This document shows positions 2,102 to 54,957 of a stretch of DNA of 64,000 bases, piece by piece (position 1 is the first letter of the stretch; each line of letters begins with the position of its first letter). The stretch is from Novibacillus thermophilus. GTDB lineage: Bacteria; Bacillota; Bacilli; Thermoactinomycetales; Novibacillaceae. A program made the translations under genes and the position numbers. The notes beneath the pieces were generated by a model. The model saw only the letters and a list, made by a program, of their open reading frames with translations, was not told where the DNA came from and did no database searches. Location of the stretch: positions 930,001 through 994,000 of the forward strand of contig NZ_CP019699.1 in assembly GCF_002005165.1 (NCBI RefSeq), given 5' to 3'.

Positions 2102-3823
2102 GTGTTAAAGCTCCTTTCTCGGTTCAATACGATCAAGAATAAAATTTTGTTTAGCTATGTCCTTCTATTAATCATTCCTTTGTCTTTAGTTGCAATGGTG
2201 AATTATATTAAAAGCGCTAACATTTTAGAAGAAAAGGCGGTTGAACAGTTTGACACCGTATCTCAACTGGCCAATCAGCAGTTCGATCAATTTTTTATAG
2301 ATATCGATAATCTTTCTAAAAACATTTTTCAAAGTTCTGTCGTTCAGAGACACTTGACGCAGCCTTTTGTTCCCTCAAATGAATATTATCGAGGCGAAGT
2401 TGAAATATCCGCTTTTCTAAAAAGGATTTGCGACCTAAAGCCGGATATTTCGAGCATCGTGATTTACGGGTCCAACAACCGGAATTACTACTATCACCCG
2501 AAAAGGCGCTGGAATTCGTCTTACGACGGTACTCAAGAGCAGTGGTATCAAGAGGCGGTAGCCAAGGACGGGGCGTGGGTGTTAAGCGGACCGAGAGAGG
2601 ACAGACAGCTGTATAACAAATTTGATAAAAGACCTGAGCAGGTGGTGACGTTCAGCCGCGTCATTAAAAATTTGAAAACGCTGGACCCTATCGGGGTCCT
2701 TGCCATCAACGTCGAAATTGAAACCCTTGAACATTTAACGGGAGTGGATACTGGCGAGAACAACCTGGTCATTTTAGATAAAGAAGGAAAGCCTGTTGTG
2801 GCGAGTGAAGAGTTAAGCAAATGGGAGAACAGAGATGAGTTGTTGCAAGTGAGTACAGTGTCACCCGTGACGGGTTGGACCTCGACTTATTTTGCCGATA
2901 AAACCGAGCTGGTTAAAAAATCTAAACACATTCGCAACTTTATGATAGGCTTGACGGTTTTGCTCCTTGTCATGGCGCTTTTTCTGGCGAATTACATCTC
3001 TTCGGGAATTGTGAAACCGCTGTCCCGTTTAAAGTTAAAAATGAAAGATGTCGAAAAAGGAAACTTTAACAGCTGGCAAGCTGTACCTGTGAGTCAAAGG
3101 GATGAAGTGGGGGAGTTGACGCAAGGGTTTAATCACATGGTCGAACAGATCGAGGCGTTAGTAAACGAAATTCAAGAGCGTGAGCGGCAAAAAAGGGAGA
3201 CAGAGTTAAGTGCGTTACAGGCGAGAATCAATCCCCATTTCATGTACAATACGTTGAACGGCATGCGGTGGATGGCCCTCATGGAGGGGAATCAACGCTT
3301 GGCGGAGTTGATCAGTTCGTTTGTCTACCTTTTAAAATTTAGCGCTAAAAACCAAGACAATTTGATTACGCTAGAACACGAGACCCGTCTGCTGAAGTAC
3401 TACGTAGATTTGATGAAAATGCGGCATGAGCCGTTTGAATTTCGGATACGGATGGGCGAATGCATGAACGACCACAAGGTCGTGCCGTTTCTGTTGCAAC
3501 CGATCGTAGAAAATGCCATTTTTCACGGTATCGCTCCGTTGAAGAGAAAAGGGAACATCGATGTCGATTTATACGTTCAGGACGGGATGAACGTCGCCGT
3601 CGTCCGCGATGACGGTGTCGGGATGGAGCAGAAACAAACTGAATCATTGCTGTCGGACGAGCAGAAAGACGGGCACGGCGAGCATTTTAACAAAATCGGT
3701 TTAAAAAATGTGTGTGACCGGTTGCGGTTGCAATTCGGTTCACCTGCTTCTTTAGATGTGACGAGCAAACCGGGCTGTGGTACAGAAGTTCGCGTCATCT
3801 GGCCAATTACTGTGAGAAAGTAG
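2102..3823 (+). CDS. YesM-type sensor histidine kinase
   Basis: Membrane sensor kinase of the LytS/YesM class, which typically pairs with AraC-type response regulators controlling carbohydrate genes. Order of parts: TM segment near residues 14-36, extracellular sensor region, second TM near 278-303, HAMP, His_kinase domain with phosphoacceptor motif NPHFMYN near 377, and an ATPase domain with DDGVGM. GTG at 2102 is chosen because AGGAG sits 8 bases upstream; an in-frame ATG at 2078 lacks a ribosome-binding site. The next gene is its likely partner, 15 bases downstream. Intergenic 1865-2101 also contains a perfect T6CGA6 palindrome at 2003-2016 of unknown role. Confidence 0.92.
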   Translation: MLKLLSRFNTIKNKILFSYVLLLIIPLSLVAMVNYIKSANILEEKAVEQFDTVSQLANQQFDQFFIDIDNLSKNIFQSSVVQRHLTQPFVPSNEYYRGEVEISAFLKRICDLKPDISSIVIYGSNNRNYYYHPKRRWNSSYDGTQEQWYQEAVAKDGAWVLSGPREDRQLYNKFDKRPEQVVTFSRVIKNLKTLDPIGVLAINVEIETLEHLTGVDTGENNLVILDKEGKPVVASEELSKWENRDELLQVSTVSPVTGWTSTYFADKTELVKKSKHIRNFMIGLTVLLLVMALFLANYISSGIVKPLSRLKLKMKDVEKGNFNSWQAVPVSQRDEVGELTQGFNHMVEQIEALVNEIQERERQKRETELSALQARINPHFMYNTLNGMRWMALMEGNQRLAELISSFVYLLKFSAKNQDNLITLEHETRLLKYYVDLMKMRHEPFEFRIRMGECMNDHKVVPFLLQPIVENAIFHGIAPLKRKGNIDVDLYVQDGMNVAVVRDDGVGMEQKQTESLLSDEQKDGHGEHFNKIGLKNVCDRLRLQFGSPASLDVTSKPGCGTEVRVIWPITVRK

Positions 3824-47023: not shown

Positions 47024-47147
47024 TTGACCGGTGCATTTTGATTGTGATATTCTTTATGAGTATGCTTTAACCGCTCGGCGTCGGTTTTTTTTAAGCTTTA
47101 GCACCGAACGCTGGCGAGTCTGAGTGTAGAGGAGGTGCATCGACGAG
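47024..47147 (+). promoter_or_regulatory. Promoter and leader of the L21 operon
   Basis: TTGACC (47024-47029), 18-base spacer and TATTCT (47048-47053) precede a leader with a short CG-rich element and a T-rich stretch near 47086. Bacillota rplU genes carry an L21 autoregulatory leader; this region is in the right place, but I did not fold it. Confidence 0.5.
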
Positions 47148-50372: not shown

Positions 50373-51083
50373 TTGGCGCAAAAAAAGAAGTCAAATTACA
50401 CTTTGGAAATCGTATTTGGCGGCTTGGTACTCGTCATCTTACTCGCGATCTTTGTCCCGTCGATCCTGGGCGGGTCGGATTCAGACGAATCGTCCCCGTC
50501 CATAGACGGGCCGAAGGAAGGGGTAGAGGTTCCGGTTGAAGAGCACGATCCTGTGCTGGGAGACGATGATGCACCCGTGACCGTTGTCGAATTTGTCGAT
50601 TACCAGTGTCCATCGTGTAAAGTGAGCGCGGAACAAACCCTTCCCAAAATAAAAGAGAATTACGTCGAAAGCGGTGAAGTTCGCTACGTGTTGAAAGACT
50701 TCCCGCTGTCGTCTCACCCGAACGCTGTCCCGGCTGCCGTTGCCGTCCGCGCGGCGGGGGAACAGGGAATGTACTGGGAGATGCACGACCTCGTTTTTGA
50801 AAACCAAAGTGAATGGGCGGAGTTAAGTGACGATGAACTGAACGACAAGTTTCTGTCCTACGCGGAAGAGCTAGGGTTAGACACAGAACAGTTTGCAGAG
50901 GACATCGAAAAGGATCAGTTAACAGATCGCGTGATGGCCGGAAGAAAATTGGGGGAAGATTTAGGTGTTCGGTACACGCCGACAATGTTTGTGAACGGCA
51001 AGGTGTACGAGGATCCTGTAGGCCCAGATGAACTCGAGGACATTATAGAAGAAGCGAAACGAACAGCGGACAGTTTGAAATAA
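50373..51083 (+). CDS. Thioredoxin-fold thiol-disulfide oxidoreductase (DsbA/BdbD-like)
   Basis: A 236-residue exported thioredoxin-fold protein. The signal-anchor (about 11-28: LEIVFGGLVLVILLAIFV) is followed by a DsbA-type domain with catalytic CPSC (C79 and C82) and a cis-Pro region YTPTMFVNG. TTG start with GGAGGGAATG upstream. Such proteins form disulfides in exported proteins; it lies immediately before the peptide-receptor locus but has its own terminator. Confidence 0.9.
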   Translation: MAQKKKSNYTLEIVFGGLVLVILLAIFVPSILGGSDSDESSPSIDGPKEGVEVPVEEHDPVLGDDDAPVTVVEFVDYQCPSCKVSAEQTLPKIKENYVESGEVRYVLKDFPLSSHPNAVPAAVAVRAAGEQGMYWEMHDLVFENQSEWAELSDDELNDKFLSYAEELGLDTEQFAEDIEKDQLTDRVMAGRKLGEDLGVRYTPTMFVNGKVYEDPVGPDELEDIIEEAKRTADSLK

Positions 51084-51107
51084 CTTAAAATAAAAAGCAG
51101 TCAAGGG

Positions 51108-51149
51108 ATAGACCGAGGAAACGTCTCTAATCCTCGGTCTATTATTTTT
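51108..51149 (+). terminator. Rho-independent terminator before the peptide-receptor locus
   Basis: Perfect 12-base inverted repeat ATAGACCGAGGA/TCCTCGGTCTAT (51108-51142) with an 11-base loop and a T-rich tail. Confidence 0.85.
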
Positions 51150-51172
51150 AGCGACGTTATTTTATAATTTTT

Positions 51173-51284: not shown

Positions 51285-52385
51285 GTGATACGTGCGATTC
51301 CATTGGAGGGTGTGGTACATCAGTCGTATTTGAGGCGCTTGTGTGAAGAGATTGACAGAAATTTACGCGAGAACACGGATACGGGTGTATTCACTTTTTT
51401 GTACCGTTATTTTCAGACGTTATTGCAGCAGAGGCGGTTAGAGGAGCTTGAAGTGTTGATTGAAGCATTAGAATCGCATACGTTTACCGTTCATACCAAC
51501 AGGGTACACGCATTCGTCAATTACGTGAAAGCGTATTTGCGAAAGTCACAAGGAAATTTAAAAGAATCTGCTCATTGGTTCAGGGAGACATTAGTGAAAC
51601 ACGACGAACTTCAGCAAATCGGGATGGAGAATGTTGAGGTGGACTGCTACAAAGAACTGGGAAATTTAGAGTTTCACCAAAAGCTGTACAAATGTGCAAT
51701 AGATAAATATCAGTCTGCCATTAATCGTCTTCAGTTAAACGAAGACAGCCGTTATATGCTGGCGATCGTGATGTACAACATGGCGCTTTGCCAATATAAA
51801 CTAAAAAATTATCACCAAACACTCGAATATTTAAACAAGGTCATTCCCCTAGCAAAAGATACGAGTAATTCTTACTTACTTTTGGACACTCTAATTTTGA
51901 AATCGGCTCTGCTGTCCGAACATTTCAGACATTACGCTGAGGCGAATAAAATACTTGATCAGGCTTACGAAATTGCCCAGCGAAATCAACATTCGTCTGT
52001 CATGAACATCATTTGGAACAACTGGGGACATAACTTTTTTCACCTTAAACAGTATGTACTCGCGGAACAGGCCTTACAGCATTCCATCAGGCTTAGCCAC
52101 GAATCTAACGATCTGGAAGCCGAACTGCATTCCGGCTTGTTGTTAGCCGAAATATGGGTCGCTCAAGGAAGAGAAGCGGAGGCAAAACAACTTCTTAAGC
52201 GCGCCGTGGAAAATGCGTCCCATAATCGCCAGTACACGAAGGAGCTTCTCGACTGCCTAGAGCTGTTGGGACAATTGGAGACAGACGAGTCGCTGCGCCT
52301 CAAATACCTTGAAGATGCATACCAACTGGCCCTTAAATTAAAAAAACATCAAAAATCGACAAAGATTAAAAAAAATTTAACATAA
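51285..52385 (+). CDS. TPR-repeat peptide-receptor-like protein without HTH (Rap-like)
   Basis: A 366-residue all-helical protein with at least five recognisable TPR-type units, for example YKELGNLEFHQKLYKCAIDK, VMYNMALCQYKLKNYHQTLEY and IWNNWGHNFFHLKQYVLAEQ. Residues 1-65 form a helical N-terminal part with no helix-turn-helix and no signal peptide. Length and layout recall Rap proteins (about 375 residues), which dephosphorylate Spo0F or block ComA and are inhibited by imported peptides. GTG start; the repeat-peptide gene follows 78 bases downstream. Role as receptor for that peptide is inferred from family and adjacency. Confidence 0.78.
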   Translation: MIRAIPLEGVVHQSYLRRLCEEIDRNLRENTDTGVFTFLYRYFQTLLQQRRLEELEVLIEALESHTFTVHTNRVHAFVNYVKAYLRKSQGNLKESAHWFRETLVKHDELQQIGMENVEVDCYKELGNLEFHQKLYKCAIDKYQSAINRLQLNEDSRYMLAIVMYNMALCQYKLKNYHQTLEYLNKVIPLAKDTSNSYLLLDTLILKSALLSEHFRHYAEANKILDQAYEIAQRNQHSSVMNIIWNNWGHNFFHLKQYVLAEQALQHSIRLSHESNDLEAELHSGLLLAEIWVAQGREAEAKQLLKRAVENASHNRQYTKELLDCLELLGQLETDESLRLKYLEDAYQLALKLKKHQKSTKIKKNLT

Positions 52386-52399
52386 ATTAATAGAAAATA

Positions 52400-52426
52400 G
52401 AAGGAATTTGGATATTTTTGTCGAAA
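52400..52426 (+). promoter_or_regulatory. SigH-like promoter of the repeat-peptide gene
   Basis: GAAGGAATT (52400-52408) fits the SigH -35 RnAGGAwWW; after 11 bases GTCGAAA (52420-52426) fits -10 RnnGAAT in six of seven positions. Bacillus phr genes are typically driven by SigH, so this supports a pheromone role. Scored by eye only; a SigA match (TTGTCG-N16-TATCTT) overlaps it. Confidence 0.55.
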
Positions 52427-52463
52427 CAGTAAAATACACTATCTTGAAAAGGAGTTGTTCCAG

Positions 52464-52967
52464 TTGGTAGTCACTCGGTCAAAATGGATGTTGTGGTTGG
52501 CAGGTATCGTGGTGTTGACGGCGGCACTGGTCGGTCTTCAAGCAAAGTATGGATCGGTGGGCTCTGAAACGGCGAAGATCATGGTTCCGGGTCCCCATGG
52601 AATTGAAAAGCCGAAAATATTGGTTCCGGGTCCCCATGGAATTGAAACGGCGAAGATCATGGTTCCGGGTCCCCACGGGATTGAAACGGCGAAGATCATG
52701 GTTCCGGGTCCCCATGGAATTGAAACGGCGAAGATCATGGTTCCGGGTCCCCACGGGATTGAAACGGCGAAGATCATGGTTCCGGGTCCCCACGGGATTG
52801 AAAAGCCGAAAATATTGGTTCCGGGTCCCCATGGAATTGAAAAGCCGAAAATATTGGTTCCGGGTCCCCACGGGATTGAAACGGCGAAGATCATGGTTCC
52901 GGGTCCCCACGGGATTGAAAAGCCGAAAATATTGGTTCCAGGTCCTCACGGGATTGAAAAGGCTTAA
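52464..52967 (+). CDS. Exported precursor with ten tandem 13-residue peptide repeats
   Basis: A 167-residue protein: an N-terminal hydrophobic signal/anchor (residues 8-27), a short spacer, then exactly ten contiguous 13-residue units (residues 36-165) and a final Lys-Ala. Units are of two types, TAKIMVPGPHGIE (six copies: 1, 3, 4, 5, 6, 9) and KPKILVPGPHGIE (four copies: 2, 7, 8, 10); VPGPHGIE is invariant. No enzymatic domain. TTG 52464 has AAAAGGAG 9 bases upstream; TTG 52455 abuts the RBS. Sits just after a Rap-like TPR gene and under a SigH-like promoter, so it is a candidate multi-copy pheromone precursor. I know no named family for it. Confidence 0.85.
   Translation: MVVTRSKWMLWLAGIVVLTAALVGLQAKYGSVGSETAKIMVPGPHGIEKPKILVPGPHGIETAKIMVPGPHGIETAKIMVPGPHGIETAKIMVPGPHGIETAKIMVPGPHGIEKPKILVPGPHGIEKPKILVPGPHGIETAKIMVPGPHGIEKPKILVPGPHGIEKA
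52569..52958 (+). repeat. Ten tandem 39-bp coding repeats
   Basis: Ten in-frame 39-base units without spacers, together 390 bases. Two versions differ at the first codons (ACG GCG AAG ATC ATG versus AAG CCG AAA ATA TTG). CAT/CAC and GGA/GGG synonymous changes and a more diverged last copy (CCA GGT CCT) show recent duplication with some drift. Copy number could change by slippage or recombination. Confidence 0.97.
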
Positions 52968-53135: not shown

Positions 53136-54470
53136 ATGTCGCTAGAGCAGATAGAGCTGGGGAACATCATCCGCAAGAAACGCAAATCGCTCGGTTTGAC
53201 GCTGAACGATTTAGCGGGAGACAACATATCGGTTCCGACGATTAGTAACATAGAGCGCGGGGTCGTACACAATGTCAGTCAAGAGAAAATTGACTATTTG
53301 TTGGACAAGTTAGGTTTAGACGAGCAGGCCATTGAGCAAATGAAACAGTCTGATGTGGAAGAGCGGGAAGCGATCGAGTTTGAACTGTCCGTTATTCGTA
53401 ACTTGATTGAAACCCGCGTGTTTGACATCGCCCGCGAACGGATTTTAGCCTTGGAAAAGCAGGATGTTATTCACCATCACGAGGGTTTGTCGGCGCAGTT
53501 ACAACTGGCAAAAGGACATTTGTACCGCCGGCAAGATCAGTGGGATCGTGCGGCCCGCGCCTTTCGCAGAGTCATCCAAATGTCCAGAGAAGCGCAGTTA
53601 GATTCAAAAATGAATTTGGAAGCCGAGGCTTACTGTTATTTGGCCCAATGTGCGCTATATCACGATGAATATGAAAAGGCTTTAAGTTATGCCGATAAGG
53701 CGCTGAGCGCATTAAATAGAGAAGGGGATAAACCTTACCTGGAAGGCCGCATTTACTACGACAAAAGTGTCTTCCACTATTACCTGGAGGCGTACGCGCC
53801 CGCTTACGAATGCGTTCAAAAGGCGCGGGAAACCAGCCTAAAGGCGAAAGATATGCGTTTAGTCGCGTTGTCCTACAACTTAGAAGGGAATATTCTGAAG
53901 AAGCAAAAAATGTACAACCGAGCGACTTCCCTTTTTAAAAAGGCCGTAGACATTTGCACAACACACTTTCCCGACAGGGAACTCGCTAGTTTGCTCTTTC
54001 TGAATATGGGTGACAATTACTACAATATGAAAAATTACAAAGAAGCGTTGCGGAACTTTGAAGTCGCTCTTGACCTCGTGAAGGCCACCAAAGATAAAGG
54101 GATGCTAGGATTAGTCTACAGCTCCTTTGCCGAGGTGTACTTTGACCAGGGCGAGTATGAAAAAGCGGAGCATTTTGTAGACCAAGCGTTACCTTTGATC
54201 AAAAACAGGAATAACACCAAAACGATTTTGGAATATTTGCAATTTTTGTTGGTCAAAGCCAAACTCGAACTCCGTAAAGGAGACATTGATGCGTTTCTCT
54301 CCGTGTGCGAGGAAGGGATCCGCTTGGCACAAAAGAGCAAGAAATTTGACAAACAAAAGGAATTTCACTTTATTTTAGCTGAATATTACGATACAATTGG
54401 CAATAAAGAAAAATTTATACAGGAAACTGGTAACATGTACTTTGTCGAAAAGATGCGACAGGGAGGATGA
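53136..54470 (+). CDS. RRNPP-type regulator: HTH plus TPR domain
   Basis: A 444-residue cytoplasmic regulator. An XRE-type HTH (about 7-62: GLTLNDLAGDNISVPTISNIERG) is followed by a linker and TPR units (for example RIYYDKSVFHYYLEAYAPAYE, LASLLFLNMGDNYYNMKNYKEAL, GLVYSSFAEVYFDQGEYEKAE). This HTH-plus-TPR layout and length match NprR and PlcR-like receptors, which bind re-imported peptides. ATG with AGGAGG upstream. A 41-codon exported-peptide gene starts 5 bases after its stop. The target genes are not visible. High confidence in architecture; the peptide-sensing role is inferred. Confidence 0.9.
   Translation: MSLEQIELGNIIRKKRKSLGLTLNDLAGDNISVPTISNIERGVVHNVSQEKIDYLLDKLGLDEQAIEQMKQSDVEEREAIEFELSVIRNLIETRVFDIARERILALEKQDVIHHHEGLSAQLQLAKGHLYRRQDQWDRAARAFRRVIQMSREAQLDSKMNLEAEAYCYLAQCALYHDEYEKALSYADKALSALNREGDKPYLEGRIYYDKSVFHYYLEAYAPAYECVQKARETSLKAKDMRLVALSYNLEGNILKKQKMYNRATSLFKKAVDICTTHFPDRELASLLFLNMGDNYYNMKNYKEALRNFEVALDLVKATKDKGMLGLVYSSFAEVYFDQGEYEKAEHFVDQALPLIKNRNNTKTILEYLQFLLVKAKLELRKGDIDAFLSVCEEGIRLAQKSKKFDKQKEFHFILAEYYDTIGNKEKFIQETGNMYFVEKMRQGG
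54356..54384 (+). promoter_or_regulatory. SigH-like promoter inside the 3' end of the receptor gene
   Basis: AAAGGAATT (54356-54364) fits RnAGGAwWW and GCTGAAT (54378-54384) fits RnnGAAT exactly; the 13-base spacer is one longer than usual. It lies about 90 bases before the small peptide gene, matching the known arrangement of internal SigH promoters for phr genes at the end of rap genes. Confidence 0.6.
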
Positions 54471-54474
54471 TGTC

Positions 54475-54600
54475 ATGTTGAAAAAGTTAATTGTTTCCGC
54501 TGTGGTCGTTGCCCTTTTGACGTTACCGGTTACTGCCTTTGCGGCTGAAAGAGTGGTCGGCCACAGTTTTGCTCCTGGTCCAACTGTGAGTACTGAATAA
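54475..54600 (+). CDS. Exported signalling-peptide precursor (Phr/NprX-like), 41 residues
   Basis: A short protein with a classic signal peptide: MLKKLIVSAVVVALLTLPVT with AFA-A as a likely signal-peptidase site. The mature part ERVVGHSFAPGPTVSTE carries the candidate signal at its C-terminus. ATG 54475 follows GGGAGGATG and is 5 bases after the receptor stop, so the pair is cotranslated. Same size and layout as NprX, PapR and Phr precursors; it contains PGP, like the repeat precursor upstream. Confidence 0.85.
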   Translation: MLKKLIVSAVVVALLTLPVTAFAAERVVGHSFAPGPTVSTE

Positions 54601-54630
54601 TTGGCGTTCCAGTGAAACGTCACTTTCCTA

Positions 54631-54664
54631 AACCGTTTGCCTGCTCGGCGAACGGTTTTTTTAT
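54631..54664 (+). terminator. Rho-independent terminator after the peptide gene
   Basis: AACCGTTTGCC and GGCGAACGGTT (54631-54657) form a hairpin followed by eight or nine T. Confidence 0.85.
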
Positions 54665-54828
54665 ACTAAATAGTGTTTGTGCCTTTCAGTGTCGGACAGT
54701 TTCTCTTTGTACAGGTCCAACAGCCGCAAATAGTCCCGGTAGACGAGCTGTTCAAAAAACATGAGGCGCCGTTCCATTTCCTCTAAACGCTTTTGCATGC
54801 GGATCAAATCGCTTTTGACATAAGACAT
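54661..54828 (-). CDS. Small coiled-coil hypothetical protein, 55 residues
   Basis: A minus-strand open frame, beginning MSYVKSDLIRMQKRLEEMER and continuing RLMFFEQLVYRDYLRL, almost wholly helical with heptad pattern. The ATG at 54828 has AGGGGAG nine bases upstream. It converges on the peptide gene, sharing its terminator region. I do not recognise it; small helical proteins of this kind include Spo0E-type phosphatases, but no SQELD motif is present. Confidence 0.6.
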   Translation of the reverse strand: MSYVKSDLIRMQKRLEEMERRLMFFEQLVYRDYLRLLDLYKEKLSDTERHKHYLV

Positions 54829-54957
54829 CAAAGGTTTCTCCCCTTACATAGTAAAAAATGCCAGAGCTTAATTGCATTGTATGGCGTTGAGGGTCAATTT
54901 GCTTGTATTAACGGCCATTGATCAAAAAATGGTTCTCCGTGCAATTTAAAAAAAGAC

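Follow-up and report, generated by a model that had tools for sequence, protein, structure and literature searches.

The gene at 52455..52967 of the window (the whole 64-kb stretch of DNA that was analysed) encodes an exported-looking protein made of ten 13-residue units with an invariant VPGPHGIE, and it is rather likely to be the multi-copy pheromone precursor of an RRNPP-type system whose peptides are destined for the TPR protein encoded just upstream. The first-pass annotation had proposed both such a protein and its position next to an RRNPP-type TPR gene. The open reading frame, Tandem Repeats Finder and the codons bear out the former, and the array gene indeed adjoins the TPR gene 51285-52385, 69-78 nt downstream of it and on the same strand.

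The array gene and its surroundings

The locus lies in what we take to be the rplU-rpmA-spo0B-obg-pheB neighbourhood of Bacilli; these gene names are backed by SPOB_a and ACT matches and by an L21 leader. Between obg and the ACT-domain gene are found, in this order, a DsbA-like gene, a terminator, the TPR gene, the array, an HTH-TPR gene, a gene for a 41-aa peptide and a second terminator. The features are as follows:

47059-47131, + strand: ribosomal protein L21 leader (Rfam RF00559)
50373-51083: DsbA-like gene, named from reading its sequence
51107..51143, + strand: intrinsic terminator 5' of the operon (a 13-bp stem and an 11-nt loop, followed by ATTTTTA)
51285..52385, + strand: TPR protein without HTH, all-helical, probable receptor for the array peptide (Pfam TPR_12, 6.5e-15)
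52400..52426, + strand: possible sigma-H-type promoter, weak (GAAGGAATT, 11 nt, GTCGAAA; one mismatch to the consensus)
52455..52967, + strand: array gene, with a hydrophobic N-terminus (...KWMLWLAGIVVLTAALVGLQA), then repeats
52569..52958, + strand: ten 39-nt repeats, [TAKIM/KPKIL]VPGPHGIE (Tandem Repeats Finder and translation)
52538-52894, − strand: antisense ORF of the array, with IPWGPGT as its constant unit
53136..54470, + strand: HTH-TPR receptor, 444 aa, Alo/NprR-like layout (Pfam HTH_3, 5.1e-06; TPR_12, 2.5e-22)
54475..54600, + strand: single-copy 41-aa propeptide of the 53136 receptor, MLKKLIVSAVVVALLTLPVTAFAAERVVGHSFAPGPTVSTE, starting 4 nt past the receptor stop
54630..54658, + strand: intrinsic terminator at the operon end, strong (12-bp stem, T tail)

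The loop of the first terminator is longer than the terminator scan permits, and this terminator was found by RNA folding (−21.9 kcal/mol for 51095-51160). Inside the four-gene group, where the array ends 168 nt before the HTH-TPR gene 53136, the scan scored no + strand terminator. From this layout, 51285-52385, the array, 53136-54470 and 54475-54600 probably form one four-gene operon between the two terminators. The upstream TPR gene had been recognized in the first-pass annotation, which did not mention the HTH-TPR receptor or the propeptide that follows it. As to the region 5' of the array, a scan for sites with at most one mismatch to the sigma-H consensus gave 10 on the + strand of the window and none on the − strand, for 3.25 expected per strand. 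A Spo0A-box-like heptamer, TGTCGAA, overlaps the sigma-H-type candidate at 52419; it occurs 15 times in the window for 13.9 expected, which is no enrichment. With one near-match each, not clearly enriched, there is a hint of a sigma-H promoter and of a Spo0A box 5' of the array. A short ORF (54661-54831, − strand) separates the TPR genes from the ACT-domain gene and has a similar-looking counterpart in genome G001 (L089, 3951-4217, − strand).

The array ORF runs from a TTG at 52455 or 52464 to a stop that ends at 52967 (167-170 aa). The start first proposed, 52464, stands as a TTG start, and the TTG at 52455, behind AAAAGGAG, is also possible; a ribosome-binding site is present before the ORF. 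The N-terminus contains basic residues and then a hydrophobic stretch (hydropathy filter), a putative Sec signal. The 39-nt units follow each other head-to-tail and in frame, and VPGPHGIE is encoded in all ten; on the 64-kb window Tandem Repeats Finder gave the array scores of 574 and 647, the sole other row scoring 56. Two types of unit, A (TAKIM, six units) and B (KPKIL, four units), each followed by VPGPHGIE, differ in three residues only (T/K, A/P and M/L), and K-I-[M/L]-VPGPHGIE is common to all ten. They run A B A A A A B B A B along the array and do not alternate as had been described. After the last VPGPHGIE come the residues KA, and the core is thus not C-terminal. The repeats contain no dibasic (Kex2-like) site. 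Pfam and NCBIfam gave no convincing domain or anchor for the array protein; two weak matches to repeat models in Pfam were below the cut-offs.

Across the ten units, nine codons are variable. The change is synonymous at six of them, which all lie in K-I plus the core, while the three replacing changes are all in the flank. Under a simple substitution model, four silent changes out of four in the 8-codon core correspond to p ~0.006, and six out of six in KI plus core to p ~0.0004, the latter for a region picked after looking. Since the units are nearly identical as DNA, part of the invariance of the core is due to recency. One antisense frame conserves residues about equally, with four of eight variable codons silent versus four of seven in the sense frame (nine units, each taken from its own end). 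The antisense ORF 52538-52894 does not begin until unit 9 and its N-terminus is not signal-like, and we take the IPWGPGT frame as a by-product of the codon register.

The two TPR proteins and the sister genus

With its 366 aa and its TPRs, the 51285 protein falls inside the 250-500 aa TPR receptor criterion of RRNPP(A), and Pfam detects no HTH model in it. It had been called Rap-like, a fair word for its predicted architecture, whereas a Rap ancestry or function is only putative. No Rap model is found among its Pfam or NCBIfam matches, and its nearest paralogues, the G001 ortholog aside, are HTH-TPR receptors that belong to the same two genomes (with E 5.0e-19 and 2.2e-18). Its AlphaFold2 model, built from an alignment of 68 rows, is an all-helical TPR structure (pLDDT 94.7) that fits RapI and NprR equally. 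In their apo forms these two are the best bacterial quorum-sensing structure matches: RapI with Z 24.8, rmsd 3.8 and 323 aligned residues (covering RapI 14-362), and NprR with Z 24.6, rmsd 4.7 and 322 aligned residues (NprR 67-394, that is, minus the N-terminal part). The eukaryotic LGN outranks both (Z 27.5), so that the TPR fold alone is unspecific. A single-sequence search with 51285 returned mainly generic TPR chains and no RRNPP receptor chain. Profile A2, in which 66 of 68 rows are HTH-TPR receptors, matches NprR (5dbk, 4.1e-14; 4gpk, 1.3e-13), RapF (5.7e-14) and Rap3T (2.9e-13), all of which rank under many generic TPR chains. No relative of 51285 was confirmed in genome_contigs. At the residue level, N246 had seemed near-invariant in the family alignment and was considered as a peptide-contact Asn lost in the G001 ortholog; it was dropped, since only 16 of the 68 rows of the wider alignment have N there. 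Position 165 (N in 49 of 68 rows and in 51285, K in the G001 ortholog) is too weak to use. The 51285-52385 and 53136-54470 proteins both match phrog_5208, a 372-position phage family of unassigned function (E 3.7e-08 and 5.9e-18, respectively).

The 53136 protein also matches RNPP_C, at 0.0015, which is below the cut-off of that Pfam model. The 54475 propeptide, exported-looking by hydropathy, is placed like those of the 53136 paralogues and contains PGP (core APGP); together the two genes fit an Alo/NprR-type pair, in which a short peptide gene follows the HTH-TPR receptor. Elsewhere, in genome G000, a Phr-like 46-aa gene (L075, 2860-3000, − strand) adjoins a truncated HTH-TPR receptor gene that contains an internal stop (G000:C1:3215505-3215963), and a transposase-like ORF is found near it.

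We then compared the locus with that of G001, which belongs to a sister genus and is the only other genome of the family examined. There, the DsbA-like gene is followed by the 51285 ortholog (40% identity over 318 aa) and then directly by a small reverse-strand ORF and the ACT-domain gene; the array, the HTH-TPR gene and the peptide gene are all absent from this locus. G001 thus keeps a 51285 ortholog without a precursor, meaning that the TPR-array pairing is not fixed. Judging from the two sequences, 51285 is common to both genera, and the array and the 53136/54475 pair have been gained here or lost in G001. Over its whole genome G001 gave 20 matches to the 53136 receptor, with two each in L077, L082 and L083. 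Among the matches listed, 10 of 16 receptor places have a gene for an exported-looking peptide of 38-48 aa located between −4 and +6 nt relative to the stop of the receptor gene; at the other six, no peptide gene was found. The closest G001 match to 53136 among those listed (L076, 51% identity) sits at another locus, and no array or peptide gene was found beside it. Several G001 propeptides are of the R-x-P-[IV]-V-x-x-[HN] type (stretches L077, L078, L079, L080, L081, L082, L083 and L085).

Multi-copy precursors in related genomes

No convincing homologue of the array was found in 60 relatives, where E < 1e-3 outside its own genome was reached only in G038, G020 and G042; stretch L042 holds a repetitive ORF, and L040 and L041 are known here by score alone. 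The PGPHGIE codon pattern occurs in one of 398 genomes of the class, which is its own. The VPGPHGIE pattern was met in 21 stretches of genome_contigs, each with a single copy that lies in an open frame and is not tandemly repeated. By their titles, 20 are from outside Bacillota and one is from Lachnospiraceae, and we took them as chance occurrences and not as relatives of the array. No array was found in phages or in viral contigs, and the plasmid search gave 7 records, all below 60% identity and with no pheromone gene named, which are other proteins, several of them repetitive. As far as these pattern and homology searches go, the array is private to this genome among the 398 of the class.

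The search for tandem-repeat precursors beside TPR genes that had been proposed with the first-pass annotation was run and gave a positive answer. The survey comprised 162 distinct receptors in 179 stretches, two of them the window's own, leaving 160; its sources were the 53136-receptor places among the matches listed, their loci, and the loci matching 51285. It covered the order, with at least one receptor (L067) from the class and not the order, and precursors were sought downstream of receptors only. Twelve of the 160 other receptors (among the matches listed) have a precursor with 2-7 copies:

L153 (G010), 2185-2472, − strand: seven copies of [TE][SG][AG]FPGP (7x T[SG][AG]FPGP)
L193 (G006), 3550-3817 counted on the reverse strand, − strand: six copies of [TE][SG][AG]FPGP
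L121: GNPGEY, four copies
L029: QSEPGGL, four copies
L156: NSEPGGL, three copies
L140: SEDPGMS, three copies
L031: three variant units
L131 and L132: two copies each, near-identical
L149, L122 and L212: two copies each

These and the window array were kept from 20 rows flagged as repetitive; the seven dropped (L073, L024, L147, L160, L038, L205 and a second frame of L193) were chance repeats, other proteins or a wrong frame. With ten copies, the window array is the longest among the receptors surveyed. L153 and L193, which come from two genomes of a single genus, are related precursors that differ in copy number (7 versus 6). Seven of the twelve arrays end exactly at the last copy, two (L153 and L193) end one residue later, and three (L131, L132 and L149) have a longer tail.

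All but three of the multi-copy precursors (9/12, the exceptions being L122, L149 and L212) have Pro-Gly in their unit. More generally, a propeptide filter was passed at 71 of the 162 receptors and not at the other 91 (among the matches listed), so that for many receptors no propeptide was found downstream. In the last 12 residues of the 71 filtered propeptides, Pro is present in 67 and Pro-Gly in 29, compared with 12.4 expected when the tails are shuffled; this set includes L136, L191 and L030, which look like non-propeptides, and related precursors count more than once in it. VPGPHGIE carries the Pro-Gly core of the surveyed propeptides, and close single-copy sequences are TNVPGHT (L135) and NPPAHGME (L078, in G001). 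Of all the evidence, this resemblance to the propeptides of relatives, a likeness and not homology, speaks most strongly for the repeat unit being a signal peptide.

Proposed signalling and comparison with known systems

If the array gene is the precursor for 51285, its hydrophobic N-terminal signal would direct export, likely by Sec, and extracellular proteases would cut between the repeats, the variable TA/KP pair being the likely linker. Each precursor would release as many as ten almost identical peptides based on [KI(M/L)]VPGPHGIE, to be imported by an oligopeptide permease as in the rest of the family and bound in the TPR groove of the 51285-52385 protein. Having no DNA-binding domain, this protein should, like Rap proteins, work through contact with a partner protein. 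The KA after the last copy would call for C-terminal trimming or for a mature peptide of greater length, as in L131, L132 and L149. The 53136 receptor and its single-copy peptide would constitute a conventional second channel in the same operon, and the two channels may cross-talk. We assign the array to 51285 as its most likely receptor because the propeptides found lie 3' of their receptor and 53136 has its own; this assignment rests on layout, the survey having sought propeptides 3' of receptors only. A more elaborate scheme is put forward tentatively. The HTH-less TPR receptor would be supplied at high dose by the ten-copy polyprecursor, and the HTH-TPR regulator by a single-copy peptide of related PGP core encoded on the same transcript. 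A recombination-prone copy number would determine how much signal each transcript yields, and with it the quorum threshold; units A and B would give two peptide species differing in processing or affinity.

Somewhat unlikely, in our estimate, is that the array is a pheromone precursor whose main receptor is 53136, or both proteins, the 54475 propeptide being a second ligand. The array ends close to 53136 with no + strand terminator scored between them, the receptor's own peptide also has PGP, and the array, 53136 and 54475 are exactly the block absent in G001, where 51285 stands without a precursor, so that this block may have been gained or lost as a whole. However, the surveyed propeptides lie downstream of receptors, where 53136 already has one (an upstream layout being outside the survey), and its closest G001 match has neither an array nor a peptide gene that we could find. 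It is improbable that the gene encodes a secreted or surface structural protein, VPG-rich and with elastin-like disorder. Elastin-type repeats are VPGxG, which VPGPHG resembles, and the weak plasmid matches are other proteins, several repetitive; but the array protein shows no convincing domain or anchor, its repeats amount to only 130 residues, it lies between two TPR peptide-receptor-type genes, and relatives have PG-repeat precursors beside receptors. Still less probable is a multi-core antimicrobial or modified (RiPP-like) precursor: multi-core precursors exist in RiPPs and identical cores with short linkers would suit one, but reading the translations of the long ORFs between 46 and 60 kb revealed neither a modification enzyme nor a dedicated transporter, and the core is devoid of Cys, Ser and Thr. 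The least probable reading, a decaying or fortuitous repeat without function, would agree with the near-identical DNA units (a recent expansion), the single genome in 398 and the TTG start, and is countered by ten units in frame, core changes that are only synonymous, a ribosome-binding site and a group of receptor genes.

Should the array indeed be a pheromone precursor, it would extend tandem precursors to ten copies, and the 10-100 aa length cut-off of a large genome scan would hide the most repetitive precursors. The array, the single-copy paralogues in its own genome, and the six- and seven-copy precursors that two congeneric genomes of the same order carry would then be natural material for relating repeat number to signal dose and quorum threshold.

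Multi-copy RRNPP propeptides as such are established (PMC5199041, PMC9765709 and PMC11343458, in the portions available). Repeated propeptides of NprR, AimR, PlcR and Rap have been published, with up to six copies stated in the accessible text (PMC9765709; also PMC5199041), and tandemly duplicated Phr propeptides, Phr105 and Phr3T, are described in Rap systems of Bacillus phages, with up to eight copies in the excerpts at hand (PMC11343458); the initial statement that precursors normally hold one copy, sometimes two or three, is therefore outdated. As far as these texts go, the array shares with them an exported or exported-looking precursor with several copies of one candidate pheromone beside a TPR receptor, and differs by its ten copies, its length, its two linker types and a receptor that is HTH-less and of putative Rap status. 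The 'strict' setting of RRNPP_detector, as given in the available part of its description, accepts propeptides of 10-100 aa (PMC10075063); this is a search setting and not a biological definition, and a precursor of 167-170 aa exceeds it and would not be listed. In AloR-AloP of Paenibacillus, an HTH-TPR receptor is followed by a short exported peptide gene, with many pairs per genome, and the 53136/54475 pair and the ten G001 pairs share this layout; unlike in the array, a multi-copy precursor was not met in the portion of that paper available (PMC7425212).

Seven precursors of relatives (L153, L193, L029, L156, L121, L140 and L031) are likewise multi-copy with a Pro-Gly core and lie directly 3' of a receptor gene. 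In contrast to the array, they have 3-7 copies and a receptor with an HTH, overlap the receptor end (script-called), and end with their last copy or a single residue after it. Yeast alpha-factor is one secreted precursor with many copies of one signal, and the resemblance first drawn to it holds for the many copies per precursor; the array has no dibasic processing site, and receptor class and kingdom are different, making alpha-factor only a loose analogy. This locus or a ten-copy precursor was not found in the literature searched (including the accessible text of PMC12700828), which is no proof of absence. Within that literature, as far as its available text goes, the new elements are the ten copies, the precursor length of 167-170 aa, an operon with two receptors and a partner TPR protein that lacks an HTH.
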